Positions 41,767 through 49,622 of a stretch of DNA of 64,000 nucleotides are shown here, one piece after another. A program made the position numbers and the translations under genes. The notes under the pieces were generated by a model. It was not told the DNA's origin. It searched no databases and was given only the letters and a program-made list of their open reading frames with translations. Source of the stretch: Thermithiobacillus tepidarius DSM 3134 (GTDB lineage: Bacteria > Pseudomonadota > Gammaproteobacteria > Acidithiobacillales > Thermithiobacillaceae); assembly GCF_000423825.1 (NCBI RefSeq), contig NZ_AUIS01000011.1:1-64000 (forward strand), in the 5' to 3' direction. Numbering within the stretch: the first letter of the stretch is position 1; every line of letters starts with the position of its first letter.

Positions 41767-42218
41767 TCCCTCGTCTCCGGTCCGCAACTGCGCTGGGCAA
41801 GAAAGGTGGCGAGAATCTGCTCGGCCGCCGTCTGGTCGAGGAGTTTAGCACGTTTGGCGGCGGACAATCCGCTCTCGCGCAGGTCCTGCTCCGCCGCGAA
41901 GCTGCTCAGGCGTTCGTCGACCCAGTAGAGGTGCCGGTGGTAGCGCCCGGCCAGGCGATTGCCGAAGCGCCGCGCCAGCGGCGTCACGGGGCCGGGACTG
42001 CCGTCCATGTTGAGCGGCAGGCCCACCACCAGGGCGTCGGGCTCCCAGGCGGCAACGAGCTGGTCCAGGACCTGCCAGTCGGGGCCGCCAGGGCCGTTGC
42101 GCACGGTGCTCAGGCCCTGGGCCCCCGTGCCGATGGCGCTGGCGAAGGCCACGCCGATGCGGCGGGTGCCGAAATCGAAGCCCATGAAGCGCTGGTGCTT
42201 GGCCAGCGGAGCATTCAT
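41763..42218 (-). CDS. ruvX: Holliday-junction resolvase-like protein RuvX (YqgF)
   Basis: 151 residues from ATG 42218; the frame is open further upstream inside yqgE. GFDFGTRRIGVAFA is the RNase H-like start with the catalytic Asp, GLPLNMDG follows, and VDERLSSFAAE and LDQTAAEQILATFL close the site. It acts in 16S rRNA 5'-end maturation and is predicted to resolve junctions. It lies between yqgE and pyrR, as in Pseudomonas. Confidence 0.95.
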   Translation of the reverse strand: MNAPLAKHQRFMGFDFGTRRIGVAFASAIGTGAQGLSTVRNGPGGPDWQVLDQLVAAWEPDALVVGLPLNMDGSPGPVTPLARRFGNRLAGRYHRHLYWVDERLSSFAAEQDLRESGLSAAKRAKLLDQTAAEQILATFLAQRSCGPETRE

Positions 42219-42246
42219 GAATGCACCTGATGTGGCGGGCTGTCGC

Positions 42247-42807
42247 TCAGGCATGCCCCGCTGTGTCCGACAGCAGCAGGGGGTCCACGCCGATGGCTTT
42301 GGCGGCGGCCTCCCAGCGGTGGTCCACCGCATCCTCGAAGAGGATCTGCGTCTGCGCCGGGCCGTGCAGCCAGGCATTTTCCTTGATCTCGTCCTCCAGC
42401 TGCCCGGCCCCCCAGCCGGCATAGCCCAGCGCCAGCAGAAAGCGGCTGGGACCGCGTTGCCGGGCGATGGCTTCGAGGATGTCCCTGGAGGTGCTCAGGC
42501 CGATGGACTCGCTGACCGGCAAGGTCGAGTTCCACGACCCCAGCGGCTCGTGCAGCAGGAAGCCGCGATCCGTCTGCACCGGCCCGCCCCAGTGCACCGG
42601 CAGGACACTGGTGCTGAAGCTGCCTTCGCCCATCTGCAGCTGGCTGAGCACGTCTCCGACGGTCAGGTCCAGCAGGCGATTGATCACGATGCCCATGGCG
42701 CCTTCGGCATTGTGCTCGCAGATGTAGGTCACCGTGTGGCTGAAATTGGGATCCGCCAAGCGCGGCATGGCGATGAGAAAGTGGTTTTTCAAGGATGCGA
42801 AGGACAT
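42247..42807 (-). CDS. yqgE: YqgE/AlgH-family protein
   Basis: 186 residues: LKNHFLIAMPRLADPNFSHTVTYICEHNAEGAMGIVINR, then PVHWGGPVQTDRGFLLH and ALGYAGWGAGQLEDEIKENAWL, the DUF179 pattern. The function is unknown; the name AlgH comes from a proposed role in alginate regulation. It is conserved upstream of ruvX. Confidence 0.96.
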   Translation of the reverse strand: MSFASLKNHFLIAMPRLADPNFSHTVTYICEHNAEGAMGIVINRLLDLTVGDVLSQLQMGEGSFSTSVLPVHWGGPVQTDRGFLLHEPLGSWNSTLPVSESIGLSTSRDILEAIARQRGPSRFLLALGYAGWGAGQLEDEIKENAWLHGPAQTQILFEDAVDHRWEAAAKAIGVDPLLLSDTAGHA

Positions 42808-42966
42808 AGTGCGGCCCGTCCTCTGGCTGGAGCGCTGTTGCGCGAGCGGGTTTGCTTAAATTGAACCATGTTTGGCGCGCGGGGCCAAGTCGCTCGGCGG
42901 CGAGCAGGCCGCAAGGGCGGACAGGCTGGCGACGGCTCGCCCGGGACAGCGGCATGCGTGCCCACC

Positions 42967-43815
42967 TCATTTCAGGCGATTGTTGGCAAAATTCCAGGTT
43001 CGCACGATGTGCAGCACGTCCACTTCCCGACGCATGTCCTCGGGAAAAGGGCTGTAGGGGGCGCCGAGGCGGACGATGCGCTTGGCGGCTTCGTCCAGGA
43101 CCGGCGAGCCGGAGGAGCGCTGCACTTCGATGTCGGCGATGCTGCCGTCGGGTCGCAGGGCCACGTCCAGCACCAGGCTGCCCGCCAAGCCCTGGGCGCG
43201 GGCTTCCTCCGGGTAGTTCAGGTTGCCGATGCGTTCCACCTTGAGGCGCCAAGCCTCCATGTAGGCGGCATAGCGGTATTCGCGGGTGGAGGAATCGATG
43301 ACCTTCTCCCGCAGCGGCTGCCGGTTGCCGGAGCGGCGCATCTCCTGCTCGAGCCGGGCAATGTCCAGGTTGGGGTTCAAGGGCAGGGCGGGCGACGTGG
43401 TGCTTGTGTCTGCCGGGGGTGCGTCAGCGGCCGGGGGGCGCGCTGCCGGTGCTTGCTGGCGCTGGGCACGCAGGCTGCTTTCCGTGTCTGCTTCCGCCCG
43501 GCGCGGCGGCTGGGCTTCCGGCGCGGACGGGGTGGGGCTGGCCGGCGGGCGCGCTGGCGGCTCGCGGCCGGCTGCGCCGCGGCCCTGGTGGTTGGCCTGG
43601 CTGAGCAGATCCGCCTGGGCCGGGGTTTTCTCCGCTTTCGGCAGCGGCGCCAGCACGATCTCGATGGCCTCCGGCTGCGATGGGCGCTTGTCCGGCAGGC
43701 GCTGCTGGAAGCCGATGCCGAGCAGGATGAAAAGATGCACGATGGCGGACAGCAGCAGCCAGGGAAACAGCCGGTCGGCATGGTCGCGGAAAAGTTGGAG
43801 CAGGTTCAGGGTCAT
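42967..43815 (-). CDS. tonB: TonB-family energy transducer
   Basis: 282 residues: a short cytoplasmic start, one membrane helix (LFPWLLLSAIVHLFILLGIGF), a long Pro/Ala-rich periplasmic linker (about 45-150) and a C-terminal TonB domain (YMEAWRLKVERIGNLNYPEEARAQGLAGSLVLDVALRPDGSI). It couples proton-motive force to outer-membrane receptors. Its order with gshB and yqgE matches Pseudomonas, but three genes are inserted between it and gshB. No exbB/exbD is nearby. It overlaps the Gx transporter gene by 4 bp. Confidence 0.92.
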   Translation of the reverse strand: MTLNLLQLFRDHADRLFPWLLLSAIVHLFILLGIGFQQRLPDKRPSQPEAIEIVLAPLPKAEKTPAQADLLSQANHQGRGAAGREPPARPPASPTPSAPEAQPPRRAEADTESSLRAQRQQAPAARPPAADAPPADTSTTSPALPLNPNLDIARLEQEMRRSGNRQPLREKVIDSSTREYRYAAYMEAWRLKVERIGNLNYPEEARAQGLAGSLVLDVALRPDGSIADIEVQRSSGSPVLDEAAKRIVRLGAPYSPFPEDMRREVDVLHIVRTWNFANNRLK

Positions 43816-44354
43816 GGCTGCGGCGCGCTCTCCAGGCGCGTGAGGATCCAGTGGGCGATCAGGCCGTTGCCGATGCCGAAGAAGAGGGCGGCGGCCAGCA
43901 GCGGCGGCAAGAGCCAGAATACACCCGGATGCTGGATGAAGACGAGATAGGCCGTAACGAACTGGGCGCCGATGTTGGCCAGCGCGGCCAGCAGGGAAAA
44001 GCCGACCGGCCCGAAGCCGCGCCCCGGCAGATACTGGGCGGGAAAGAGCACGAGCAGGCTGCCGAGCGCGCCGGACAGGCTGAGCCAGAAGGTCGGGCTG
44101 AACAGGGTGCCCAGGAGCAGGGCGCTGACCAGCACGCGCAACAGGCTGACCCAGGCGGCGGCGGCGAAGCCGTAGCGGCCCAGGGCGACGATGACCACGA
44201 TGTTGGCCAGTCCCGGCTTCAGGCCGGGCAGCAGCGGCGGCAGGGCGCTTTCGATGATGTGCAGGGAGACCGCCAGGGCGGTCAACCGGGCGATGCGGGC
44301 GTCGCCGCCGTCCGGCAGGGCCGCCAGGTTGAGGCGCTCACTCGGCGATGGCAT
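43812..44354 (-). CDS. Gx transporter family membrane protein (heptaprenyl-synthase component I-like)
   Basis: 180 residues from ATG 44354, overlapping the NusG-II gene by 17 bp. Several membrane segments are seen, with LPPLLPGLKPGLANIVVIVALGRYG being the family signature (GLKPGLAN). These proteins are annotated either as heptaprenyl-diphosphate synthase subunit I or as Gx transporters and are often encoded with ApbE and NusG-II proteins. Together they are thought to serve flavin-based extracytoplasmic electron transfer. Confidence 0.85.
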   Translation of the reverse strand: MPSPSERLNLAALPDGGDARIARLTALAVSLHIIESALPPLLPGLKPGLANIVVIVALGRYGFAAAAWVSLLRVLVSALLLGTLFSPTFWLSLSGALGSLLVLFPAQYLPGRGFGPVGFSLLAALANIGAQFVTAYLVFIQHPGVFWLLPPLLAAALFFGIGNGLIAHWILTRLESAPQP

Positions 44355-44736
44355 CGAAGTCCTTGCCGTCTCCGCCGGCATCGCCGGGAATCAGCACCAG
44401 CACGTGGTTGGGCACGCAGGCAGCGCTGTCGTGGGCGTGGGCGAGCCAGCCGGCGCGGATGCACTGCTTGCCCTGGCAGGGGCTGGACAATACCCGCGCT
44501 TGACCGTCGCGGATCTCCACCACGGTGTCGCCGAGCGGGCCCGGCACGTGGATGCGGCGCTCCTGCGCCAGGGGAAGCTCGGCCAGCAGGGTGCGATCCT
44601 GGAAGATCTGCACCGTGCGGCCGGCCGCACGACTCTGGGTGATCCACAGCGCCAGCGGCAGCAGGAGACACAGGGCCAGAATCAATGCGCGGTCGGCCGG
44701 CGTGGTGGCGTCGCGGAGCCACTGGAGTGCGGGCAT
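44338..44736 (-). CDS. NusG domain II-containing membrane-anchored protein
   Basis: 132 residues from ATG 44736. One N-terminal membrane helix (LILALCLLLPLALWI) is followed by a NusG_II domain, recognised by SSPCQGKQCIRAGWLAHAHDSAACVPNHVLVLI. The CxxxxC and further Cys are conserved in this family. It is not a transcription factor; these exported domains accompany ApbE and Gx proteins. Confidence 0.88.
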   Translation of the reverse strand: MPALQWLRDATTPADRALILALCLLLPLALWITQSRAAGRTVQIFQDRTLLAELPLAQERRIHVPGPLGDTVVEIRDGQARVLSSPCQGKQCIRAGWLAHAHDSAACVPNHVLVLIPGDAGGDGKDFDAIAE

Positions 44737-44738
44737 GG

Positions 44739-45833
44739 TCAGGCGGCCGGGCGCTTGGTTTGGCGCGGAGCGGACAGATCCCGGACCTGGGCGCGCACGC
44801 CGGGCGCCAGTTCGAGCAGCGGCTGCAGCGCGGGCGTGACCCAGACCTGACCGCTGTCCTCCACCACCAGCACCTTGTCCACGCCGAGTGCCCGAGCCAC
44901 CTGCGGCCACTGACGGGGGCCGGCGACGAACAGGGCGGTGGAAGCGGCGTCGCCCAGGGTGGCGTTGTCGGTGACCACGGTGACGGAGATCAGGCCGCGG
45001 GCCGGCGCGCCGCTGCGCGGGTGCAGGATATGGTGAAAGCGCTGGCCCTGGTGGATGAAATAGCGCTCGTAGTCGCCCGAGGTGAGCACGCTCATGTCGC
45101 CCTGGTTGCGGATGGCGGCGATGGTGCCGTCGCCGCGCGGCGCGCGGATGCCGATGCGCCAGGGGCTGTCGCCCTTGCTGCCCAGCACCCGCAGGTTGCC
45201 GCCCAGATTGACGATGGCATTCTCGATGCCGGCACGCTCCAGCTGCGCCACCACCCGGTCGACGGCATAGCCCTTGGCGATGGCGCCGAAGTCCAGGGTC
45301 AAGGTCGGGGTGTCGGTGCGGGCCATCAACCCGTGCTGCGGATCCCGGCGCAGTTGCAGATGCTTGACCCCGATGCCCTGGCGCAGGAGGGCGGTGATGC
45401 GGGACGGGATCGGCGGGGCGCGCTCGATGCCCGGCTCCGGCGCTTCGCGGAAGCCCCACAGCGCGGTCAGCTCCCCCAGGCCGGGATCGAAGTTGCCTCG
45501 GCTGGCGCGGCTGAGGCGGAGGGCTTCCAGGAGCAGCGGCTGCAGGTCGGCGGGCACCGGCACCCACTGGCGCGTGTGCAGGGCCTGGTTGAAGCGGGCC
45601 AGGGTGGCGTCCGGCGTCCAGGGGTGCCAAATGTGATTGATCTCGTCCAGGGTGCGGAACGCGGCTTGCAGGGCGGCATCCGTGGCCGTGTTGCGCGGCG
45701 CATAGACGGTGATGGTCGCCAGGGTGCCCATGACCAGGCCCTGTTGGCTCTGCACCTGCTGCGCCTGCCGGCAGCCGCCGAGCAGCGCGGCGAAGAGCAG
45801 GAGGGGCAGCAGGGCGAAAACGCGAGGCTTCAT
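44739..45833 (-). CDS. apbE: ApbE-family FAD:protein FMN transferase (lipoprotein)
   Basis: 364 residues. A lipoprotein signal ends in ALLGGC (Cys21). MGTLATITVYAP, NLGGNLRVLG, APRGDGTIAAIR, TSGDYERYF, HILHPRSGAP and STALFVAG match ApbE. The enzyme attaches FMN from FAD to a Thr/Ser of exported electron-transfer proteins. No NqrC/RnfG-type target is in the window. It is followed by the NusG-II gene after 2 bp. Confidence 0.95.
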   Translation of the reverse strand: MKPRVFALLPLLLFAALLGGCRQAQQVQSQQGLVMGTLATITVYAPRNTATDAALQAAFRTLDEINHIWHPWTPDATLARFNQALHTRQWVPVPADLQPLLLEALRLSRASRGNFDPGLGELTALWGFREAPEPGIERAPPIPSRITALLRQGIGVKHLQLRRDPQHGLMARTDTPTLTLDFGAIAKGYAVDRVVAQLERAGIENAIVNLGGNLRVLGSKGDSPWRIGIRAPRGDGTIAAIRNQGDMSVLTSGDYERYFIHQGQRFHHILHPRSGAPARGLISVTVVTDNATLGDAASTALFVAGPRQWPQVARALGVDKVLVVEDSGQVWVTPALQPLLELAPGVRAQVRDLSAPRQTKRPAA

Positions 45834-45840
45834 GCGGCGC

Positions 45841-46782
45841 TCAGCTCAGGCGCGCCTCGATGACGTCGAAGAGCCGGGCGCAGACGTTGGTCTTGAAGAA
45901 GCGGTCGATCTCCTGCACGCCCGTGGGGCTCGTCACGTTGATCTCGGTGAGATGGCCGCCGATCACGTCCAGGCCGACGAAGACGAGCCCGTCCTGGCGC
46001 AGGCGCGGTCCCACCCGGGCGCAGATCTCCCGGTCGCGCGGCGTGAGCTCGGCGGGCTGGGCGCTGGCGCCGGCCACCATGTTGCCGCGGAAGTCGTCGG
46101 CTGCCGGCACGCGCAGCAGCGCCCCGGCGATCGGCTCGCCGTCGACCATGAGGATGCGCTTGTCGCCGTCGCGCACGGCGGGGATGTAGCGCTGCGCCAT
46201 GACGTAGTGCCGGCCGGTGCCGGTCACCGTCTCCAGGATGCTGCCGACGTTGCGGTCGCCGGTGTGCAGATAAAAGACGCCCTCGCCGCCGCGGCCGTAG
46301 AGCGGCTTGACCACGACCTCGCCTTCCTCGGCCAGGAATTCCCGCAGCTGCGGGATGTGGCGGCTGACCAGGGTGCGCGGCATGAGCTCGGGGAAGTGCA
46401 GGGCATAGAGCTTCTCGTTGGCGTTGCGCAAGCTGACCGGATCGTTGATGACCCAGGTGCCGGCGTGCTCCAGCAGATAGCTGGCGAAGATGTAGTCCAT
46501 GTCGAAGGGCGGGTCCTTGCGCATCAGCAGCGCGTCCATCTCCGCCAGCGGCCGGTGGGCGGGCTCGCCGAGCTGATAGTGGGCACCCGGCTCGCGCTTG
46601 ACGGTCACCGGCCGCAGGCGCCCCCAGGCCTTGCCGTCGCGCACCGACAGGTCGGCCAACTCCAGGTAGTGGCAGCGATGGCCGCGCGCCTGGGCCTCCA
46701 GGAGCATGGCGAAGGTGCTGTCCTTGTGGATGTTGATGCCCCCGATGGGGTCCATGAGAAAGGCGATGTCGAGTGGGCGCAT
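45841..46782 (-). CDS. gshB: Glutathione synthetase
   Basis: 313 residues of the ATP-grasp GshB family: AFLMDPIGGINIHKDSTFAMLLEAQARGH, LMRKDPPFDMDYI, VVKPLYGRGGEGVFYL, and VGLDVIGGHLTEINVTSPTG. It joins gamma-glutamylcysteine and glycine. It lies 4 bp behind gshA, forming a two-gene glutathione operon, and 7 bp before apbE. Confidence 0.97.
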   Translation of the reverse strand: MRPLDIAFLMDPIGGINIHKDSTFAMLLEAQARGHRCHYLELADLSVRDGKAWGRLRPVTVKREPGAHYQLGEPAHRPLAEMDALLMRKDPPFDMDYIFASYLLEHAGTWVINDPVSLRNANEKLYALHFPELMPRTLVSRHIPQLREFLAEEGEVVVKPLYGRGGEGVFYLHTGDRNVGSILETVTGTGRHYVMAQRYIPAVRDGDKRILMVDGEPIAGALLRVPAADDFRGNMVAGASAQPAELTPRDREICARVGPRLRQDGLVFVGLDVIGGHLTEINVTSPTGVQEIDRFFKTNVCARLFDVIEARLS

Positions 46783-46786
46783 GGTC

Positions 46787-48088
46787 TCAGAAGGGTTGGG
46801 CCTTGTGCATTTCCGCCAATTCCCGCGCCGCCGCCACCAGGGCCAGGCGCGCGATGACGCCGTAGGCGTAGAAGCGGTTGGGGCAGTCGTCGGGCTGGCC
46901 CTGGGGGTTGGGCAGCACGCAGCTCTGGGCGAAGGCCAGCGGTTCGAAGTGCATGCCGGGGGCGTTCAGGTTTTCCTCGTCGGTGCGCTGGGTGTGCACC
47001 CGATAGAAGCCGCCCACCACTTGGCTGTCGATCATGTAGACCACCGGCTCCGCGACGGCGCCCTCGATGGTCTCGAAGGTGAAAACCCCTTCCTGGATGA
47101 TGACGTCGCTGACGCTGGCGCCCTCCTTGACCGTGGCCATCTTGGTGCGCTGCTTGCGGTTGAGGTCGCGCAGCTCCTCGCCGCTCTTGACCATCATGAT
47201 GCCCATGCCGTAGGTGCCGGCATCCGCCTTCACCACCACGAAGGGGTCGCGGGTCACGCCGTGCTCGCGGTACTTCTCGCGGATGATGTCCAGGGTCTCG
47301 TCCACGTTCTTGACCAGGCAGTCCAGCCCGCTCTTCTTCATGAAGTCGATGCGGTCGCACTTGCGGAATTCGGGGTCGATGGCCCAGGCATCGATCTCCA
47401 GCAGGGCCGCCAGCTCCTTGGCGGCGGCGCGGTAGTGGGCGAAGTGCATGGATTTGCGCCGCGTGCTCCAGCCGGCCAGCAGGGGCGGGGCGATGGGCTG
47501 CTCCAGGTTCTCCAGGATCTCGGGCCGCCCGCCGGAGAGGTCGTTGTTGAGCAGAATGAGTTCCGGCTCGAAGCCGTCGGTCCGCAGGCGCCGTCCCTCG
47601 CGGACCAATGGCTCCTGCACCAGCCGGTTCCCGGAAGGCAGCTCGAAGGCCGTCGGGGCGCTCACCTCGGGCGACAGGCTGCCCACGCGCACGTCCAGGC
47701 CGGCCAGCTCCAGCAGGCGCTTCAGCTGGAAGACGTTCTCCAGATAGAAGAGGTTGCGGGTATGGCTCTCCGGAATCAGCAGCAGCCGCTCCAGACCCGG
47801 ATTGGTGCGCGCGATGTAGTTCTGGATGGCGGCCACGCACAGGGGATGAAACTCGGCGCCCAGATTGTTGAAGCCCGCCGGAAAGAGATTGGTATCCACC
47901 GGCGCCAGCTTGAAGCCGGCGTTGCGCAAATCCACCGAGGCGTAGAAGGGCGGCGGCGTGGCGCGCCATTGGCAACGGAACCAGTGCTCGATGCGGGCCT
48001 GGTGGGACAGCATCTGTTGTTCCAATTCGTGCAGCGGCCCGACCATGGCCGTCGTCAGGTGGGGCACGTTAGGCAGCATTTCCGGCAT
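46787..48088 (-). CDS. gshA: Glutamate-cysteine ligase
   Basis: 433 residues of the GshA type found in beta- and some gammaproteobacteria and acidithiobacilli, not the E. coli type. Recognisable blocks are APVDTNLFPAGFNNLG, LLLIPESHTRNLFYLENV, LLNNDLSGGRPE, CDRIDFMKKSGLDCLVKNVDETLD and VVKADAGTYGMGIMMVKSG. It catalyses the first step of glutathione synthesis with ATP. First gene of the gshAB unit; ATG 48088. Confidence 0.93.
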   Translation of the reverse strand: MPEMLPNVPHLTTAMVGPLHELEQQMLSHQARIEHWFRCQWRATPPPFYASVDLRNAGFKLAPVDTNLFPAGFNNLGAEFHPLCVAAIQNYIARTNPGLERLLLIPESHTRNLFYLENVFQLKRLLELAGLDVRVGSLSPEVSAPTAFELPSGNRLVQEPLVREGRRLRTDGFEPELILLNNDLSGGRPEILENLEQPIAPPLLAGWSTRRKSMHFAHYRAAAKELAALLEIDAWAIDPEFRKCDRIDFMKKSGLDCLVKNVDETLDIIREKYREHGVTRDPFVVVKADAGTYGMGIMMVKSGEELRDLNRKQRTKMATVKEGASVSDVIIQEGVFTFETIEGAVAEPVVYMIDSQVVGGFYRVHTQRTDEENLNAPGMHFEPLAFAQSCVLPNPQGQPDDCPNRFYAYGVIARLALVAAARELAEMHKAQPF

Positions 48089-48149
48089 AGGCGAATAACC
48101 CCGAATTCTTGTTCAAGCAACCTTAGCAGATGTCCGGTTCCGGCGCACC

Positions 48150-48878
48150 TTACCAGTCGCCCCATAAAGCCTGCAACGCGGCCAGGGCGGCGACCCCGGC
48201 GGTTTCCGTGCGCAGCACCCGCGGGCCCAGGCGCAGCGGCCGGAAGCCCGCGGCTTCGGCGGCGGCGATCTCCGCCGCACTCAGCCCGCCTTCCGGCCCG
48301 ATGAGCAGGGTCACGGGCGCGTCCGGGCGACCGAGATCGCGCAGCCCGGCGGCGGCCTGGCCGTGAAGCACCAGGCGCAGCCCGGCGGTGGCCTGGGTCA
48401 GCGCCTGGGCGAAATCGACGGGCGGCAGCACGGGCGGCACCCGATTGCGGCCGCACTGCTCGCAGGCGGACACGGCGATCTCCTGCCAGTGGGCCCGCCG
48501 CCGCTCGCGCTTGTCGGCGTCCAGGCGCACCACCGTCGCGGCGCAGAACACCGGCTGGATGCCGGCGACCCCCAGTTCGACCGCCTTTTGCACGGTGTAG
48601 TCCATGCGCTCGCCCTTGGAGATGCCGGCCAGCAGATGGACGGCGAGCGGCGACTCGCGATCCGCCGGCCGGCAGTCGGTGATGCGCAGGCGTGCCGCCC
48701 GCGGGTCCGCCGTGTCCAGTATCGCCGCGTATTCCCGGTTGTCGCCGTTGAAGAGGGTGACCGGAGCGCCCGGGCCCTGGCGCAGCACCCGCACCAGGTG
48801 GTTGCTGGCGGCGGGCGGGAGCACGGTTTCGCCGGAAACGGTCAGGGGTTCGGGGGTGTGGATCCGAATGGTGCGCAT
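48150..48878 (-). CDS. rsmE: 16S rRNA (uracil-1498-N3)-methyltransferase
   Basis: 242 residues. SPOUT-class fold: HLVRVLRQGPGAPVTLFNG near the start (PUA-like), then YTVQKAVELGVAGIQPV, and the knotted SAM site LIGPEGGLSAAEIAAAEAAGF, LRLGPRVLRTETAGVAAL. It methylates U1498 of 16S rRNA. It is upstream of gshA on the - strand with a 61-bp gap. Confidence 0.95.
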   Translation of the reverse strand: MRTIRIHTPEPLTVSGETVLPPAASNHLVRVLRQGPGAPVTLFNGDNREYAAILDTADPRAARLRITDCRPADRESPLAVHLLAGISKGERMDYTVQKAVELGVAGIQPVFCAATVVRLDADKRERRRAHWQEIAVSACEQCGRNRVPPVLPPVDFAQALTQATAGLRLVLHGQAAAGLRDLGRPDAPVTLLIGPEGGLSAAEIAAAEAAGFRPLRLGPRVLRTETAGVAALAALQALWGDW

Positions 48879-49058
48879 GGCGGGAATTTAACATACACGC
48901 CCGCACACGGTAAGCCGCGACGGGGCTCCGGCCATGGTCGGACTGCAGCGGCTGACGGCCATCGTTCCCTTGAGCCCGGTCGCTGATGCGGTTAGATTAA
49001 CTGCAAGCACCGGTGTACCGGCGGTCGACGTTTCTTCATTTCGCAAAAAGGGAAGCCC

Positions 49059-49622
49059 ATGGTCAGTTTGGTTACGCCGCCCGGCGAGCTCGGTATGCTC
49101 GCCCCGGATTTCGATCTGCCCGGCGTGGACGGGCGCCGCTACACCCTGGCGGACTTTGCCGGCGCCAAGGCGCTCCTGGTGATGTTTATCTGCAATCACT
49201 GCCCCTACGTCAAGGCCATCGAGGACCGCATCATCCGCGACGCGCGCGAGCTGGCGGCGCACGGCGTGTCGAGCGTGGCCATCAGTGCCAACGACCCCAG
49301 CGACTATCCCGAGGACAGCTTCGAGAGCATGGCGCGCCGCGCCCGCGAGAAAGCCTATCCCTTCCCTTACCTCTTCGACGAGAGCCAGGCGGTGGCCAAG
49401 GCCTACGGCGCGGTGTGCACGCCGGACTTCTTCGGCTTCGATGCGCGGCGGCGCCTGCAGTACCGCGGGCGCCTGGACGCCTCGCGCAAGGAAACGGTGC
49501 CGGATGCCCCGCGCGACCTGTTCCAGGCCATGCTGCAGATCGCCGAGACCGGCCGTGGCCCCGAACAGCAGTGGCCCAGCATGGGCTGCTCCATCAAGTG
49601 GCGCGAGGAGCATGGTGCGTGA
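49059..49622 (+). CDS. Thioredoxin-family (AhpC/TSA-like) redox protein
   Basis: 187 residues. Opening LAPDFDLPGVDGRRYTLADF is redoxin-like; the active site is ICNHCPYVKA, a CxxC motif in the place of the peroxiredoxin catalytic site. GVSSVAISANDPSDYPEDSF and VCTPDFFGFD follow the family pattern. The role is probably a disulfide or peroxide-related redox step in the cytoplasm. SD is weak (AAAAGGGAAG). The next gene overlaps its end. Confidence 0.88.
   Translation: MVSLVTPPGELGMLAPDFDLPGVDGRRYTLADFAGAKALLVMFICNHCPYVKAIEDRIIRDARELAAHGVSSVAISANDPSDYPEDSFESMARRAREKAYPFPYLFDESQAVAKAYGAVCTPDFFGFDARRRLQYRGRLDASRKETVPDAPRDLFQAMLQIAETGRGPEQQWPSMGCSIKWREEHGA

Follow-up and report, generated by a model that had tools for sequence, protein, structure and literature searches.

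The apbE-eetA-eetB cassette of Thermithiobacillus tepidarius, a probable flavinylation unit beside glutathione synthesis genes in a genome with no detected ECF-T

EetB-dependent export of FAD to ApbE has been demonstrated in Listeria. According to the account of that system, EetB binds FAD, is required for flavinylation when no FAD is added, and acts with the ECF-T protein FmnA and the ATPases EcfA/A' (PMC9973259). S components dock to the ECF module through an AxxxA motif in helix 1 (PMC11109136, PMC4820897). Examples of S components that work alone, with no module, are also known: BtuM of Thiobacillus denitrificans and some BioY proteins transport in this way (PMC6072759, PMC11109136). Our literature search on EetB, EetA or PF07456, judged by titles, returned nothing on EetB without an ECF module, and a search joining flavinylation, ApbE and Gx transporter found no paper.

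We analysed by computation the families, copy numbers, motifs, fold, gene order and co-occurrence of a related locus in T. tepidarius DSM 3134. The locus lies in a window of 64,000 nucleotides, positions 1 to 64,000 of contig NZ_AUIS01000011.1. Its genes form a run on the minus strand at 42967-48088, in the order gshA, gshB, apbE, eetA, eetB, tonB, with the following features (profile and E-value in brackets):

46787..48088, minus strand, gshA (TIGR02049 type), with which the run opens (TIGR02049, 7.6e-186)
45841..46782, minus strand, gshB, glutathione synthase, the kept neighbour upstream of apbE (NF003573, 8.2e-129)
44739..45833, minus strand, apbE, lipoprotein FAD:protein FMN transferase, predicted (PF02424, 5.6e-79)
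44338..44736, minus strand, eetA, NusG domain II protein with a membrane anchor (PF07009, 3.3e-20)
43812..44381, minus strand, eetB, six-helix membrane protein (the GLKPGLAN protein) with an ECF S-component fold (PF07456, 1.3e-36); the ATG at 44354 may be its real start
42967..43815, minus strand, tonB-like gene, downstream of eetB (PF03544, 9.2e-18)

These matches bear out the original prediction, made from the letters of the window, in its naming of the three cassette genes, of the flanking gshB and tonB, and of flavinylation as their theme. It had also called the genes overlapping, which holds for eetA and eetB (and for eetB and tonB, by 4 nt) but not for gshB/apbE or apbE/eetA, which are separated by gaps of 7 and 2 nt. 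From this spacing we infer that the run from gshA to tonB forms one transcript. A scan of positions 42000-49300 found no promoter, and terminator-like sites there did not exceed those of shuffled sequence; both results carry little weight. In the genome (2.96 Mb in 43 contigs, 100% complete), ApbE, NusG_II and PF07456 are each represented by a single gene.

It is likely, in our judgement, that the cassette is the only flavinylation unit of this genome, in which EetB moves FAD out to ApbE and ApbE flavinylates proteins encoded elsewhere. The S-component-like EetB, constantly partnered by the membrane-anchored EetA, would carry cytosol-made FAD across the inner membrane to its outer face. ApbE, a lipoprotein, would take the exported FAD and fix FMN on threonines of periplasmic or membrane proteins. 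FAD is the presumed cargo by analogy with Listeria EetB, and the direction of transport, the part played by EetA and the modification of the targets are likewise predicted.

The locus resembles the EetA/EetB/FmnA/FmnB locus described in Listeria in its PF07456 EetB, the constant neighbour EetA, the ApbE and the proposed delivery of FAD (PMC9973259). Unlike in Listeria, no ECF-T (FmnA) or other ECF gene lies nearby, and the search of the genome for an ECF-T found none. As likely targets, Rnf and an FMN_bind/PepSY pair take the place of PplA (PMC9973259). The proposed linking of EetB and ApbE to Rnf recalls the eetB-associated Rnf systems reported from Clostridia; however, eetB sits among rnf genes in those systems, whereas here it accompanies gshAB and tonB, with rnf on another contig (PMC9973259).

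The only ApbE found by a profile search of the genome matches PF02424 with 265.8 bits (curated cut-off 25.6) and carries a lipobox-like LLGGC. Its closest solved structures are FAD:protein FMN transferases. The catalytic residues given for Vibrio cholerae ApbE are Ser241, His257 and Asp285 (PMC12052999), and the corresponding positions, as read from an alignment, are kept as S252, H268 and D295. By its sequence the protein is a FAD:protein FMN transferase of predicted activity. At residue 271, outside the catalytic triad, the HHILDP motif reads HHILHP, where nine of ten aligned ApbEs have D; this histidine could reflect a one-base change or an error in sequencing. In the ApbE of the sister genus (G001, L005:6850-7992), E stands in place of D295, the triad Asp, and K in place of T299, a Thr close by.

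The motif rule for flavinylation has been given as D-x-x-[S/T]-G-A-[S/T] (PMC12052999). The pattern D-x-x-[ST]-G-A-[ST] is absent from all open stretches of at least 90 residues in the window, and the two FMN_bind (PF04205) matches of the genome both lie off the contig that carries the cassette, in agreement with the earlier statement that no flavinylated target is encoded nearby. The genome-wide search for FMN-binding domains with the motif, which the original prediction had proposed, returned two proteins. One is RnfG, with DQFTGAT and the stronger FMN_bind match, encoded in a locus with the order metG-rnfABCDGE-(138-aa ORF)-nth, the Rnf subunits being identified by Pfam matches and metG and nth by eye. 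The other is a protein of 200 aa with DGISGAT, whose gene is followed by one for a PepSY_TM protein. RnfD carries DAVSQAT, which deviates from the rule at the glycine. The targets would thus be RnfG, probably RnfD, and the FMN_bind protein beside PepSY_TM; covalent FMN on RnfG is predicted from the complete rnfABCDGE set, the FMN_bind match and the motif. This list covers FMN_bind and Rnf proteins and may be incomplete, for example as to DUF2271 and DUF3570 targets. The 138-aa ORF between rnfE and nth (L003:10506-10922) is His-rich and has no Pfam match.

A standard rnf operon elsewhere in need of this ApbE had been named beforehand as what would make the cassette ordinary, and rnfABCDGE-nth, with the RnfG motif and a sole ApbE, is such an operon. 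The cassette might instead chiefly serve the FMN_bind/PepSY_TM pair, perhaps in reduction of iron or another periplasmic substrate, and not Rnf. The adjacency of the DGISGAT gene and the PepSY_TM gene fits this, and PepSY-like flavinylation systems have been tied to iron reduction (PMC8238504). As in those systems, a PepSY_TM gene adjoins a substrate gene in this genome, but the substrate is of the FMN_bind and not the DUF2271 family, with apbE outside the cluster (PMC8238504). We think this alternative improbable: the sole ApbE must serve RnfG too, given its motif and stronger FMN_bind match, and nothing ties the cassette to any single target.

PF07456 is present in 99 of the 370 genomes of the class, and we examined the first 80 of these 99 in listing order. 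ApbE occurs in 79 of the 80, NusG_II in 78 and FMN_bind in 76. The three genes are contiguous as apbE-eetA-eetB in 64; in the other 16 they are mostly on separate contigs, and some of these cases may therefore be assembly breaks. The co-occurrence of the three genes, put forward earlier as a check, is thus found. Furthermore, apbE adjoins gshB in 74 of the 80 (a gshB match starting no more than 1.6 kb from the apbE match), and gshB-apbE-tonB occurs without eetAB in three genomes (G031, G032 and G039) that belong to three other families of the class.

We also inspected 80 named loci, picked by similarity to this EetB and mostly betaproteobacterial. The full order gshA-gshB-apbE-eetA-eetB-tonB recurs there in Gammaproteobacteria MAGs (L017-L021, L024 and L027), and two Methylophilaceae loci (L052 and L088) have gshA-gshB-apbE-eetA-eetB with no tonB match. 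An apbE was matched in 13 of the 80 named loci, most eetAB pairs lying away from apbE. Within 4.5 kb of EetB, 60 of these loci (e.g. L074:9613-11097; L017-L096) carry UbiX, often also rapZ/hprK. This ubiX neighbour, named by eye, we take to be a prenyltransferase using FMN; its place beside betaproteobacterial eetAB is a flavin link without ApbE.

Among 40 relatives, ApbE is present in seven, FMN_bind in six, and PF07456 and NusG_II in two. All 29 sampled genomes of the sister family (f2, G002-G030), which falls in the same order, lack matches to these four families, and the entire flavinylation module is therefore absent there. One relative (G036) has ApbE without FMN_bind, and five of the seven with ApbE lack EetAB, which shows that flavinylation does not always need EetAB.

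The original prediction saw the cassette as inserted between gshB and tonB, and the sister family without ApbE, NusG_II and PF07456 is what a foreign flavinylation cassette recently placed there might leave behind. However, the gshB-apbE adjacency across the class, the gshB-apbE-tonB order without eetAB in three other families and the whole gene order in named Gammaproteobacteria all speak against it, and loss in the sister family accounts for the distribution. Since the gene order is widely shared, we reject insertion by horizontal transfer as very improbable; eetAB on its own may nevertheless have been gained in this family. The earlier picture of an oddity, with an insertion, no target and perhaps a route of electron transfer peculiar to an autotroph, gives way to a conserved gene order and a standard rnf elsewhere. 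The cassette is of a known type, and both it and its conserved position are common among related bacteria. A literature search joining apbE with gshB found nothing relevant, and we know of no functional reason for coupling glutathione synthesis with flavinylation.

EetB matches PF07456 with 126.2 bits (cut-off 30). Its structure model has six helices and a pLDDT of 88.2. Searching with this model in Foldseek returned S components in all of the top 15 rows, although with weak E-values, the best being 7.3e-3. By VIA, the model aligns with RibU, the riboflavin S subunit (5kbw_B), with Z 14.8 over 162 residues at 3.2 A, a comparison to be read with the caveat that middling Z is typical of helical bundles. 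Unrelated membrane folds gave Z of about 10 or lower, and the membrane subunits of methane and ammonia monooxygenases, at about 10, fell under most S components. The EetB profile had no match up to E = 1 among the sequences of solved structures; fold comparison alone matched. A defence role for EetB was considered and dropped, there being no PADLOC match.

The Pfam name of PF07456 suggests a component of heptaprenyl diphosphate synthase, for which the apbE neighbourhood would be incidental. We give this almost no credence in view of the S-component fold with RibU first, the contiguity with apbE in most EetB genomes (64/80), and the FAD binding reported for Listeria EetB of the same family (PMC9973259).

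The equivalent of the AxxxA docking motif in EetB is A31-x3-A35, within a helix modelled at residues 25-46. A search of this genome with PF02361 (ECF-T), a profile that may miss diverged members, gave six candidates, none at E <= 0.001. As to a complete ECF transporter, the AxxxA is present here and an ECF-T was not found. PF02361 is also absent at E <= 0.001 from 47 of the 80 EetB genomes, and above the cut-off from 58. Some ECF-T match occurs in 33, in 11 of these below the cut-off only. In none of the 80 genomes does an ECF-T match come within 20 kb of either eetB or apbE. Genomes without ECF-T hold 40 of the 64 intact cassettes. Fourteen of the ECF-T matches are strong and CbiQ-like, and their role may be in the uptake of cobalt or cobalamin. 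The AxxxA was counted in 78 of the 80 genomes, after dropping one with a split gene (G088) and one with a weak match (G231), and occurs in 42 of the 45 with no ECF-T match and in 31 of the 33 with one. The docking face is therefore kept with or without a known scaffold in the genome. Either a different partner docks there, or a scaffold goes unrecognised, or the alanines serve another purpose.

An unrecognised scaffold would make this an ordinary ECF transporter, in which a diverged ECF-T missed by PF02361 drives FAD export with shared ABC ATPases. An FmnA-type ECF-T may indeed escape the profile, and both the retention of AxxxA in genomes without a match and the 33 genomes with some match are consistent with this. 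On the other hand, none of the six candidates here reaches the threshold, no match lies near eetB or apbE, and the strong CbiQ-like matches may have other work. We regard this explanation as unlikely, though it deserves serious weight. With no ECF-T found and the helix-1 AxxxA nevertheless kept, EetAB may export FAD without an ECF module. In that respect it would be like solitary BtuM and BioY, S-component folds in organisms without a detected ECF module; those proteins import vitamins, whereas EetB would move FAD outward and is constantly paired with EetA (PMC6072759, PMC11109136). We propose tentatively, at somewhat less than even confidence, that EetA-EetB of many Gammaproteobacteria, as GTDB delimits the class, is an ECF-module-free FAD exporter feeding ApbE, with the EetA helix or another partner replacing ECF-T on the AxxxA face.

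EetA matches PF07009 with 72.7 bits (cut-off 29.6), and its model consists of a single membrane helix (residues 13-34) and a NusG domain II fold. Listeria EetA is presumably a NusG_II protein as well. Two cysteines, C92 and C107, and the C-terminal D128 are invariant across 43 EetA sequences. EetA is a natural candidate for the docking partner on helix 1 of EetB because it has one membrane helix, is nearly constantly present, and, as the Listeria study reports, forms a fusion with EetB in 14 genomes (PMC9973259).

Several observations count against our preferred reading, that of a sole flavinylation unit supplied with FAD by EetB. The cassette lies away from its proposed targets, an ECF-T, which Listeria EetB needs along with ECF ATPases, was not found, and deletion of eetA in Listeria is reported to leave electron transfer unaffected (PMC9973259). 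Further points are the ApbE-bearing relatives without EetAB, the H271 of ApbE, and the named loci in which eetAB is mostly away from apbE.

As found, the cassette is an ordinary flavinylation unit. It sharpens the question of how FAD passes the inner membrane where an exporter of the Listeria type lacks its energy module, and the part worth following is this missing module together with a conserved docking face. A second pattern that calls for explanation is the class-wide linkage of the cassette with genes of glutathione synthesis. With three genes, one ApbE and known likely targets, it offers a compact system for testing the role of EetA.
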